Made by a program: the position numbers and the translations under genes. Source: Methanofollis liminatans DSM 4140 (GTDB lineage: Archaea > Halobacteriota > Methanomicrobia > Methanomicrobiales > Methanofollaceae). From it: a DNA stretch of 64,000 bases. Location: the NCBI RefSeq assembly GCF_000275865.1, contig NZ_CM001555.1, forward strand, positions 434,001-498,000, written 5' to 3'. How positions within the stretch are numbered: the first letter of the stretch is position 1; each line of letters opens with the position of its first letter. This document shows, piece by piece, positions 31,098-33,948 of the stretch. The notes under the pieces are model-generated. The model was not told the DNA's origin. It made no database searches and saw only the letters and a list, made by a program, of their open reading frames with translations.

Positions 31098-31170
31098 ATC
31101 CACGCCAGATCCGGTTTCCTCATGGGTTAAATAAAAGTGTTTAAGTGACATGAGGTTCATTGATATTCAT

Positions 31171-31575
31171 ATGAAGCAGGGGCTTCTCACCGACAGACAG
31201 AAGGAGGTGCTCAGGTACCGGAAGACCGGGCTGACGCAGCAGCAGGTGGCAGATATCATCGGCACCTCCAAGGCAAATGTCTGCACCATCGAGAAGGCAG
31301 CGTACGAGAATATCGAGAGGGCGAAAGAAACGCTCGAATTCCTTTACACTCTGGACTCGGATCACCTCTGCACGATCAAGGCCGGGACCGATCTCTTCGA
31401 CGCCTCGTCAACGATCTTCGAGGAAGCGGAAAAACTCGGGATCAAGGTAAAGTACAACACCATCGAACTGATCAACCGCATCCACGACTCGAACCCCGGC
31501 CGTTTCAGGGCGCGCTATGTCCGTGAAGACGTCGAGGTCTATATCAATAAAGAGGGCGACCTCTTTTTTGGCTGA
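31171..31575 (+). CDS. tfx: Tfx family DNA-binding transcriptional regulator
   Basis: 134-residue helix-turn-helix regulator related to Tfx, which binds the fmdECB promoter in Methanothermobacter. The N-terminal HTH reads LTDRQKEVLRYRKTGLTQQQ and VADIIGTSKANVCTIEKAAY, and the rest forms the ligand or dimer domain typical of Tfx. A TATA-like TTAAATAAAAG at about 31126-31136 predicts a transcription start near 31157, which favours the ATG at 31171 (MKQGLLTDRQ) over the ATG at 31150. Its position divergent from mtd suggests control of a methanogenesis gene, which is an inference. Confidence 0.85.
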   Translation: MKQGLLTDRQKEVLRYRKTGLTQQQVADIIGTSKANVCTIEKAAYENIERAKETLEFLYTLDSDHLCTIKAGTDLFDASSTIFEEAEKLGIKVKYNTIELINRIHDSNPGRFRARYVREDVEVYINKEGDLFFG

Positions 31576-31616: not shown

Positions 31617-32187
31617 GTTTATATTCGTTTCTGAAGAATAATTAAAGAACCGGAGACGATGGTATCCTGTACAACCGGACACAGAACAATGGCCGTATGG
31701 TGGTATGACGGCCATTCTGTAACCGTTTGACGGATAAACCGGTCTGTTCCCCAGGCGGGGGGCAGGCTGTGATGCCCCGGCTGCCCCTTATGGGGGCACA
31801 ACCGAGAAGGACTCTAATCCAGTCCCAAGGAGCTGACAGACGCTGGATCTGATCCGTGTAATGGGCCTCCGCCCGTGCAGGCGAGCCCGGCCGGCCCCGT
31901 GCCGGCATGCACAACGATCAGGATCTCTTCGCGAGACGAGGTATTCCGGTGCACACCGGAATGATCTCCATGACATGGAGACCGCGACCCACGGCACATC
32001 ACTCCCGACACCACCGCAGCAGGACTCCAGATGATCTGCTGCGCGGAAGAAGCGTGCCCGTTCGATCTGTCCGGACCCCGGTAACGGGGCGAGGAGTGGG
32101 CCGGTCCCCGTTCGCAAGTGTTTGCGCAATCCTGAGCAGGAAACCTGGGATTCTCGGAGAGAACCAAAGCAGAGGATTGATAGGAAC
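31617..32187 (+). ncRNA. Structured leader of about 540 nt ahead of the ribosomal operon (candidate new RNA element)
   Basis: The TATA box TTTATATT (31618-31625) predicts a transcript from about 31648 to the L3 ATG at 32188. I find no plausible protein in it. It is packed with perfect or near-perfect hairpins: ATGGCCGT/ACGGCCAT at 31689-31715, ATTCCGGT/ACCGGAAT at 31943-31962, TCTCCA/TGGAGA at 31965-31981, CGCAGCAG/CTGCTGCG at 32015-32043, CCCCG-GTAA-CGGGG at 32076-32089 and CGCAA/TTGCG at 32113-32126. At 31759-31798, copies of GGGGCA and TGCCCC could form mutually exclusive pairs. I searched by eye for SRP RNA and RNase P RNA signatures and did not find them. Confidence 0.5.
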
Positions 32188-33201
32188 ATGGCGAATATAC
32201 ACAGGCCACGCAGGGGTTCCCTCGCATACAGCCCGAGAAAACGGGCGAAGAGCCAGGTACCGAAGTACCAGTCCTGGCCGGAGCATAAGGGCGAGCCCGT
32301 GCTCCAGGGTATTGCAGGCTATAAGGTAGGGATGACGCACGTCATCATGGTGGACGACCACAAGAGCAGCCCGACCGAGGGGCGCGAGATCATGGTGCCG
32401 GTCACCGTCGTCGAGGTCCCGAAGATGCGGGTCGCCGCTGTGCGCGCCTACGTCACCGACTCCTACGGGCGTCACCCGCTGACCGAGGTCTGGGCCGAAG
32501 AACTCGACCCGCTGCTTGCAAAGAGGGTCACCCTGCCGAAAGAGCACGACCGCGAGGCCGTCCTCGGAGAGATCAGGGAGCGCCTCGCCGCAGGCCAGGT
32601 CAGCGACATCGTTGCGCTGGTCTACACCCAGCCGGCCGCCACGACCGGTGTCCCCAAGAAGGTGCCCGAGCTGATGGAGACCAGGATCGACGGCACTTCA
32701 ATCGAAGGCTGTTTTGACCTTGCCACCTCGCTCCTCGGCAAAGAGATCGACCCGCTCTCCCTCGTGTCAGAGGGCCAGTACGTCGATGTCACGGCCATCA
32801 CCAAGGGCAAGGGCACCCAGGGCGCAGTCAAGCGCTGGGGTATCCAGGTCAGGAAGAGAAAGCACTCCCGCGGCGGCAAAAAGCGTCACATCGGCAACCT
32901 CGGCCCCTGGAACCCGCACCACGTCAGGTGGCAGGTCCCGCAGATGGGTCAGCTGGGCTACCAGCAGAGGACCGAGTTCAACAAGCGGATCCTCAAGGTC
33001 GGCACCGACGGCCCTGCCATCGTGCCCGAAGGCGGTTTCCTCCACTACGGCATCGTGCGGAACTCCTATATCATGATCAAGGGTTCCATTCCCGGACCGG
33101 CAAAGCGGCTCATCCGTATCCGCCCGGCGATCAGACAGGGCGAGCACGCCATCAGGGCGCCCGCCGTGAACTATGTCAGCCTGGAAAGCAAGCAGGGGTG
33201 A
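32188..33201 (+). CDS. rpl3: Ribosomal protein L3 (uL3)
   Basis: 337-residue archaeal/eukaryal-type uL3 of the large subunit, first gene of the ribosomal operon. It starts [20 protein letters not shown], with [16 protein letters not shown] near residue 45, and includes [14 protein letters not shown] and [15 protein letters not shown] in the core that contacts 23S rRNA. An in-frame ATG-less upstream extension to 32122 is rejected because family members begin at this methionine. Expression presumably depends on the long structured leader just upstream. Confidence 0.96.
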
Positions 33202-33207
33202 TCAGGA

Positions 33208-33948
33208 ATGAAAGCAAATGTCAGATCAATCGACGGATCGGTCGTACGCGAGATGGAGCTTCCGTCAGTCTTTGAAGAACTCTATCGCCCTGACCTGATC
33301 AAGAAGGCCGTCCTCTCCATTCAGAGCACCCGGCTCCAGCCCCACGGCGCGCACCCGTTTGCAGGCATCAGAAGCTCGGCAGTCGGCTGGGGGTCAGGCC
33401 GCGGTGCATCGCACGTCCCCCGTCTGAAGAACGGGTCGAGAGCTGCAAAGGTTCCGCAGGCCAAAGGCGGTCGTGAAGCGCACCCGCCAGTCACGGCAAA
33501 GATCCTCGTCAAGAAGATCAACAAGCAGGAAAAATGGGCTGCTCTGCGTTCGGCCATCGCCGCAACCGCAGTATCCGAACTCGTCGCCGCCCGCGGTCAC
33601 CGCTTCGAGGGTGAAGTGCCCCTCGTCGTCGACGAATCGTTCGAAACCCTCGGAAAGACGACCGACGTGATCAACGCTCTCACCGCCCTTGGCGTCTATG
33701 CAGATGTCGAGCGTGCAAAAGAGAGCAAGAAGGTCAGGGCAGGCCGTGGCAAGATGCGTGGCCGCCGGTACAAGCAGCGCAAGAGCCTTCTGATCGTCAC
33801 CGGCGACGAGCCGCTCCGTGCAGCCCGCAACCTCGCCGGCATCGACGCGGTCAGCATCTTTGACCTCGACACCGAGATGCTTGCGCCGGGCACGCACGCC
33901 GGCAGGCTGACGCTCTGGACAGAAAGCGCCCTCAAGAGGATGGAGTGA
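33208..33948 (+). CDS. rpl4: Ribosomal protein L4 (uL4)
   Basis: 246-residue archaeal uL4 that lines the exit tunnel. The tunnel loop is recognisable in RSSAVGWGSGRGASHVPRLK near residues 55-74. The later KMRGRRYKQRKSLLIV and DLDTEMLAPGTHAGRLTLWT are typical of archaeal L4. It lies six bases after L3. In bacteria L4 autoregulates the S10 operon; whether this archaeal protein recognises the leader upstream of L3 is not known. Confidence 0.96.
   Translation: MKANVRSIDGSVVREMELPSVFEELYRPDLIKKAVLSIQSTRLQPHGAHPFAGIRSSAVGWGSGRGASHVPRLKNGSRAAKVPQAKGGREAHPPVTAKILVKKINKQEKWAALRSAIAATAVSELVAARGHRFEGEVPLVVDESFETLGKTTDVINALTALGVYADVERAKESKKVRAGRGKMRGRRYKQRKSLLIVTGDEPLRAARNLAGIDAVSIFDLDTEMLAPGTHAGRLTLWTESALKRME

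Follow-up and report, generated by a model that had tools for sequence, protein, structure and literature searches.

The 612-nt gap between tfx and rpl3 in Methanofollis liminatans DSM 4140 holds a structured, noncoding RNA leader that is conserved at this place in Methanomicrobiales. We think it probable that this RNA (31648-32187 of the window, the whole analysed stretch of 64,000 nucleotides) is the 5′ leader of the ribosomal operon that begins with rpl3-rpl4, and that its core acts in cis and is a homologue of the leader family RF03135. In Halobacteriota outside this order, the core lies within the reading frame for a putative SPOUT RNA methyltransferase (PF02598) co-oriented with rpl3, and within the order the protein was most likely lost several times while the RNA stayed.

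The extent that a sequence-only reading of the window had proposed for this RNA was sound, with a TATA-like box just 5′ of it and the rpl3 start at 32188 (Table 1). That reading also placed a promoter far upstream of L3. The presumed promoter, TTTATATT, is invariant in 12 genomes of the genus and is followed ~20-25 nt further on by AAGAACCGG; across the order, 81/92 loci have TTTAWAW 350-1000 nt 5′ of rpl3, and only 4/92 have it 200 nt away or closer. The predicted structure was confirmed by folding the leader strand, which reached −227 kcal/mol compared with −205.5 ± 6.5 for shuffled sequences (z −3.33, 0/100 shuffles). In 12/12 genus genomes, conservation begins at the TATA-like box and runs through the whole leader as far as rpl3 (mean column identity 79%), and the RNAalifold consensus of these genomes contained 140 pairs, 16 of them changed on both sides in some genome. 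Covariation evidence for the 5′ domain (31648-31800) is weak because its pairs are mostly invariant. We agree that the gap holds no plausible protein, as none of the four ORFs tested there matched Pfam, and that it carries no SRP or RNase P signature: the archaeal models RF01857 and RF00373 had no match in the window, and the genome's own copies of these RNAs lie at C1:290972 (SRP RNA) and C1:1177250 (RNase P RNA). At the gathering threshold, Rfam reported two tRNAs only in the whole window, and at E≤10 it gave two chance-level matches in the tfx-rpl3 gap. Two finer claims held in part. The GUAA-capped hairpin exists (CCCCG-GUAA-CGGGG, 32076-32089), but its cap is unconserved, being GCAA in two other genus genomes and wholly different in the rest. 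The two UGCCCC arms described as a switch (31773-31778 and 31782-31787) are invariant in 12/12 genomes and may pair alternatively with the G-run that they share at 31792-31798, just 5′ of the core, but we found no sign of switch use.

Table 1. Features of the leader and its neighbours, in window positions
Feature	Position	Strand	Evidence or remark
tfx, upstream neighbour	31150-31575	+	TFX_C, E 4.7e-31
TATA-like box TTTATATT	31618-31625	+	presumed promoter of the leader transcript; invariant in 12 genus genomes
rpl3 operon leader, structured and noncoding	31648-32187	+	z −3.33; 12/12 genus genomes
Genus-level 5′ domain: a long hairpin followed by C-rich/G-rich hairpins with competing UGCCCC arms	31648-31800	+	alignment and consensus fold
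Order-wide RNA core, 162 nt (models R1, R2)	31801-31962	+	R1 in 92/92 order loci; R2 94.7 bits
P1 hairpin	31809-31825 (arms 31809-31813 and 31821-31825)	+	6/6 pairs with a both-side change somewhere in alignment A2
Three-way junction corresponding to RF03135	31845-31926	+	placed in the window by shared motifs
P2	31845-31854 with 31916-31926	+	part of the three-way junction
P3 hairpin	31863-31888	+	part of the three-way junction
P4 hairpin	31890-31906	+	part of the three-way junction
Possible kissing contact, P3 loop GUGC (31875-31878) with P5 loop GCAC (31951-31954)	31875-31954	+	pairing and covariation above shuffles, but neighbouring slides also pair well
P5 hairpin	31943-31962 (arms 31943-31949 and 31956-31962)	+	7/7 pairs with a both-side change somewhere in A2
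Genus-level 3′ domain, ending at rpl3: hairpins and, ahead of the start codon, invariant AGGATTGAT	31963-32187	+	genus alignment and fold
rpl3 (Ribosomal_L3, PF00297), first gene downstream	32188-33201	+	E 7.5e-86
rpl4 (Ribosomal_L4, PF00573)	33208-33948	+	E 1.3e-32; product is the RF03135 ligand predicted by others
L2 gene	34215-34931		encoded in the window after rpl3 and rpl4

A sequence profile of the genus leader already matched its middle third in many relatives. Our order sample consisted of the region 5′ of rpl3 from 92 genomes, with tfx upstream in 88 of them (tfx-rpl3 gap 479-1605 nt). From 44 aligned cores we wrote a structure by hand, comprising P1, P2, P2b, P3, P4, P5 and a loop-loop contact. 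The covariation that the sequence-only reading had suggested looking for in Methanomicrobiales was clearly present in both alignments. In the MAFFT alignment of the 44 cores, 24/41 pairs showed a both-side change, and the covariation score was 0.248 compared with 0.122 for shuffles and at most 0.105 for slid controls. A covariance model built from these cores, with the window's genus included (R1), matched 92/92 order loci, including the 44 used to build it, each at E 3.1e-6 or better. In the R1-aligned 92 loci (A2), 29/37 pairs had both-side changes (500 such cells vs 161 shuffled) and the score was 0.398 compared with 0.137 shuffled and at most 0.085 for slid controls, although A2 and a further alignment, A3, are biased in favour of the model's structure, having been fitted to it. 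Because R1 contains the window's genus, we built a second model, R2, from 38 order sequences with that genus left out; its score was 94.7 bits (E 7.8e-27) for the core in the window and 95-107 bits for the remaining 11 loci of the genus. The antisense reading was rejected, since many U-G pairs of the + strand (e.g., 36/89 at one P2 pair) become C-A on the opposite strand. The proposed contact between the P3 and P5 loops paired in 85.0% of cells compared with 72.2% in shuffles, with covariation of 0.272 vs 0.103 (0/500), and its count of both-side-change pairs was not above shuffles (179/500 reach it). We keep it as possible only, because neighboring slides pair well too (79.0% at −2 and 65.7% at +2).

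The core is homologous to RF03135 (L4-Archaeoglobi), a predicted ribosomal-protein leader, as judged from model matches in its relatives. At its gathering threshold (34.5 bits), RF03135 matched 17/18 outside-order loci at the same place as the core, 16/20 order loci (four retaining the methyltransferase gene and twelve without it) and 202/392 genomes of a phylum sample (222 at E≤0.001). RF03135 and R1 strike the same nucleotides in these relatives; in locus L109, for example, the RF03135 match (1190-1277) falls within the R1 match (1142-1318). However, RF03135 had no match in the window at E≤10 and matched 0/8 genomes of the window's genus in the phylum sample. Since the family model hits the relatives' core yet misses the window and its genus, we read the window core as a divergent homologue that is a non-member by the Rfam threshold. 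The three-way junction of accepted members (P2, P3, P4) is shared, as indicated by the R2 score and by RF03135 matches inside the R1 core of relatives. The gene context agrees as well: RF03135 precedes rplC, rplD, rplW and rplB, and the next genes in the window are rpl3 and rpl4, with L2 encoded further on. Covariation supports the RNA structure over shuffles and slid controls. The order's core is longer than RF03135, adding P1, P5 and the possible kissing contact. The RNA thus no longer stands as unexplained, since a known-family match now exists for relatives, though it is below the Rfam threshold in the window itself. The portion of Eckert and Weinberg (2020, PMC7247131) available to us assigned L4 to the motif by precedent only, naming the bacterial L4 r-leader, rated the motif borderline ("?"), gave its lineage as Archaeoglobi and regarded the four leaders reported for archaea as a significant increase; the element described here spans Halobacteriota and is nested in coding sequence. 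The word "methyltransferase" is absent from the main text of PMC7247131 as available. The family is named in the Rfam papers PMC11701678 and PMC7779021, as far as their accessible parts go. Our literature search, which most subscription papers lay beyond, returned no account of the nested element or of its retention after gene loss, and no published test of L4 binding or operon repression through RF03135.

R1 matched 215/392 genomes of the phylum sample, many of them outside the order. The 92 order loci show no linkage to rpl3 by themselves because they were picked from upstream of rpl3, and we fetched 20 outside-order loci from genome-wide R1 matches; rpl3 lay downstream on the same strand in 20/20. 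This bears on the two functions offered by the sequence-only reading, an autoregulatory leader or an independent ncRNA. The first is better supported, by the RF03135 homology and these 20 loci. The second, in which a trans-acting RNA lies before rpl3 by chance and is separated from the operon by termination or processing, seems unlikely to us: the promoter-like box of its own, the conservation of the entire leader in the genus and a structure more elaborate than a minimal operator speak for it, but a chance position fits poorly with matches that were found genome-wide and still precede rpl3 every time. Genome-wide R1 scans in the order, run with stricter filters that overlook some loci found by the locus scan (e.g., that of G050), also gave 198/232 genomes with a match, nearly all with one only. 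Moreover, T5+ runs occur in only 10/92 order loci in the last 230 nt before rpl3 (T6+ in 3/92), which also lends no support to a terminator or attenuator. Given these few T5+ runs and a promoter-like box that lies 350-1000 nt upstream in 81/92 loci and near rpl3 in only four, a single transcript from the promoter near 31618-31625 through rpl3 would be expected. We likewise doubt a riboswitch-like element that senses a small molecule or ion instead of a ribosomal protein. In favour of it, the junction and loop nucleotides are near-invariant across the phylum, and the RF03135 ligand assignment is only a prediction; nevertheless, the same 20 fetched loci have the rpl3 operon downstream and no metabolic gene associated with them.

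In the outside-order loci, the cis-acting core coincides with a protein gene. The R1 match lay inside an open frame of 276-481 codons (stop to stop) in the rpl3 direction in 20/20 fetched loci, and all four host proteins scanned, half of them from the order and half from outside it, were PF02598 Methyltrn_RNA_3 (E 1.5e-65 to 1.3e-51). The RNA sits in this gene in four genomes of the order and in those that we examined outside it; the window's leader does not encode the protein. In the intact gene, the core typically covers the codons GUC GGA UCU GAY ... GUC AGR AUC UNU UCG CGA, with CCU or ACU replacing UCU in some lineages.

Synonymous codon choice follows the RNA. Among 34 coding representatives (<80% identity), drawn from 77 loci chosen partly by R1 match and leaving out 24 loci with no or weak R1 match (L233, L263 and L266 among them match weakly), synonymous identity exceeded expectation mainly at codons ~105-154. 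Serine 114 was UCU in all serine-sharing pairs (1.00 vs 0.19 expected), isoleucine 148 was AUC (1.00 vs 0.41) and serine 150 mostly UCG (0.94 vs 0.19); most codons elsewhere stayed close to expectation, serine 177 (0.67 vs 0.18) being one of the isolated exceptions. We repeated the scan on 77 loci found by protein alone (37 representatives). Element codons there gave 0.50 observed vs 0.27 expected and other codons 0.36 vs 0.32. In the loci with an R1 match, these values were 0.72 vs 0.30 and 0.41 vs 0.32, and in those without one 0.30 vs 0.26 and 0.35 vs 0.32. Synonymous-site freezing at the element codons therefore holds in loci found by protein alone and vanishes where R1 has no match. Pairing behaves likewise: P2 formed 294/306 pairs in the 34 coding representatives compared with 211.9 ± 7.0 after synonymous recoding (0/2000), and the P3 arms paired better within than across genomes (4.35 vs 3.55, 0/500). 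Between L187 (GUC/GAC) and L188 (GCC/GGC), two amino-acid changes keep the P3 pairs, and haloarchaeal representatives have UUGC/GCAA at P3. In one haloarchaeal gene (L189), the sole AGG, sole CCT and sole TCT codons all lie within the conserved codon blocks of the element.

The enzyme and the RNA seem separable in both directions, as there are loci with the gene but no convincing R1 match and loci with the RNA but no gene. For the first kind, we took the best 80 of 577 relatives found by protein, of which 58 had an R1 match at E≤1.2e-5, one at E 0.018 and 21 none, one of these 21 showing a chance-level minus-strand hit. R1-negative loci among these 80 included 4/4 from Thermococcus and 6/6 from Bathyarchaeota, with protein identity of 41-46%. 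An R1 match is not made by protein similarity alone, because Methanothrix-type loci at 42-48% identity do match among the same 80. Other loci in this set that keep the methyltransferase without a convincing R1 match were seven from ANME-2/Methanosarcinales (L267, L271, L273, L274, L278, L282, L248), two of Alkanophaga type (L238, L243) and one from Methanonatronarchaeales (L286). Among the control genomes, Haloferax volcanii was positive for both PF02598 and RF03135, and Methanosarcina acetivorans, which may be another lineage that lost both gene and RNA, was positive for neither.

Loci with the RNA and no gene are the rule in Methanomicrobiales. PF02598 was found in 4/231 order genomes, and in 2/135 of those nearly complete (≥90% complete and ≤5% contaminated), so its absence rests partly on incomplete genomes. 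In each of the four (G018, G027, G058 and G114; loci L091, L125, L126 and L109), the gene lies between tfx and rpl3, and P5 is also within the coding sequence, over FWCTPE or FRCTPE residues. The window's genome had no PF02598 match and its leader no tblastn hit. A tree of 41 order genomes with 6 outgroups, built from six concatenated ribosomal proteins, implies 7 methyltransferase losses if loss is irreversible, a count that leans on several deep nodes with support of 54-79; the better-supported nodes alone would give ~5. We rejected regain by transfer because the four remaining order proteins form one clade (support 1.0) and have diverged about as much as ribosomal proteins (one pair is 64.6% identical vs 69.8% for r-proteins), which makes vertical descent likely and loss the simpler reading. 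An unrecognised gene in the region, which the sequence-only reading had named as evidence against itself, thus turned up in a historical sense only: the core descends from inside a SPOUT gene that is now gone here.

This descent raises three further explanations of the gene-less loci. We consider it very unlikely that a short or recoded SPOUT fragment is still translated from the leader. The window's GGA-TCT-GAT frame is open for 48 codons over part of the core, but in the 68 of 88 ORF-less order loci where a pattern search found both P2 arms, their spacing falls 31, 21 and 16 across the three frames, and only 21 loci are in frame without a stop. Arm distances of 70, 71, 72 and 74 occur within one genus, and none of the 88 loci had a tblastn hit to the SPOUT protein better than E 0.035. 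Given the P2 spacing over frames, core length is no longer held to codons. A decaying methyltransferase pseudogene without present function is more improbable still. The core does descend from inside SPOUT coding sequence and 227/231 order genomes show no PF02598, yet compensatory changes run across mostly ORF-less lineages, and the core is present in 88/88 ORF-less loci (40 of them helped build R1) with no other protein part recognisable there. The notion that the element serves the methyltransferase itself as target or decoy draws on the finding that, in the genomes examined outside the order, the element lies in the mRNA of that very enzyme. This notion is just as implausible, since the element is kept in genomes where the enzyme family was not found.

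The operon leader remains our preferred reading. The most likely role of the core would be to let a protein encoded in the L3-L4 operon repress its own mRNA. The transcribed core would fold into the three-way junction, an operon-encoded protein would bind it once in excess of its rRNA sites, and binding would lower operon expression. In the bacterial S10 operon, the r-protein L4 represses its own operon via the leader. The mode of action predicted here is alike; the likeness is one of function alone, and we claim no structural kinship. The predicted candidate ligand is L4, following Eckert and Weinberg, and nothing in our data sets it apart from L3, L23 or L2. At the level that R1 can see, the core is unlike 23S rRNA. 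With filters off, the best R1 hit inside the 23S gene reached 2.0 bits (E 4.0), and a 5.4-bit hit (E 0.44) fell outside the gene. A likeness to 23S, SRP or RNase P RNA was accordingly rejected, as no hit above 2.0 bits lay inside those genes; the top hits on these loci, 8.9 bits (E 0.044), occurred twice on the SRP locus, outside the gene. Masking of the Shine-Dalgarno sequence was also rejected as a general mechanism (longest helix 6.95 vs 7.01 shuffled, p≤0.05 in 1/92 loci). CAATCC can pair with AGGATTG in the genus.

As for the host gene, we lean towards the view that the protein segments VGSD, WVDVGxxSP / RVNCGxQHP and VRIxSR owe their presence in Halobacteriota to nucleotides that the RNA requires, and that the RNA, not the enzyme, was selected through several independent losses, so that the operator outlived its host gene. 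If so, a regulatory RNA working inside a translated gene would have dictated part of that gene's protein, and ribosomes translating the methyltransferase would share the RNA with the repressor. The L20 operator of the E. coli infC-rpmI-rplT operon also uses nucleotides within an upstream coding sequence, but its host gene is retained, whereas here the host gene was apparently lost several times. The function class, a predicted r-protein leader, was known already, and the window's genus is a divergent case missed by the curated model. What is unusual is that, across a phylum, an RNA sits inside a coding gene and freezes its codons, and that it was kept after several lineages lost the gene. Few cis-regulatory RNAs are known in archaea, and the present data strengthen the borderline-rated RF03135 and extend it across Halobacteriota. 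Lineages that lost the gene are natural replicates in which to study the constraint that an RNA structure places on a protein and the effects of lifting it. The RF03135 match in Haloferax volcanii makes an r-protein ligand directly testable in a tractable haloarchaeon.

Several smaller features accompany these loci. AGGATTGAT (32173-32181), an unusual Shine-Dalgarno-like motif, occurs as a 9-mer just 5′ of the rpl3 start in 53/92 order loci (median 16 nt). Four members of the genus (L027, L028, L029 and L030, from G001, G002, G004 and G005) carry an additional insertion of ~40-44 nt a short way 5′ of the rpl3 start. The assembly G128 contains two core copies that are 89% identical, on contigs C65 and C67, both after tfx and one at a contig end; judged by these sequences, the second copy most likely belongs to a second strain in the same assembly.
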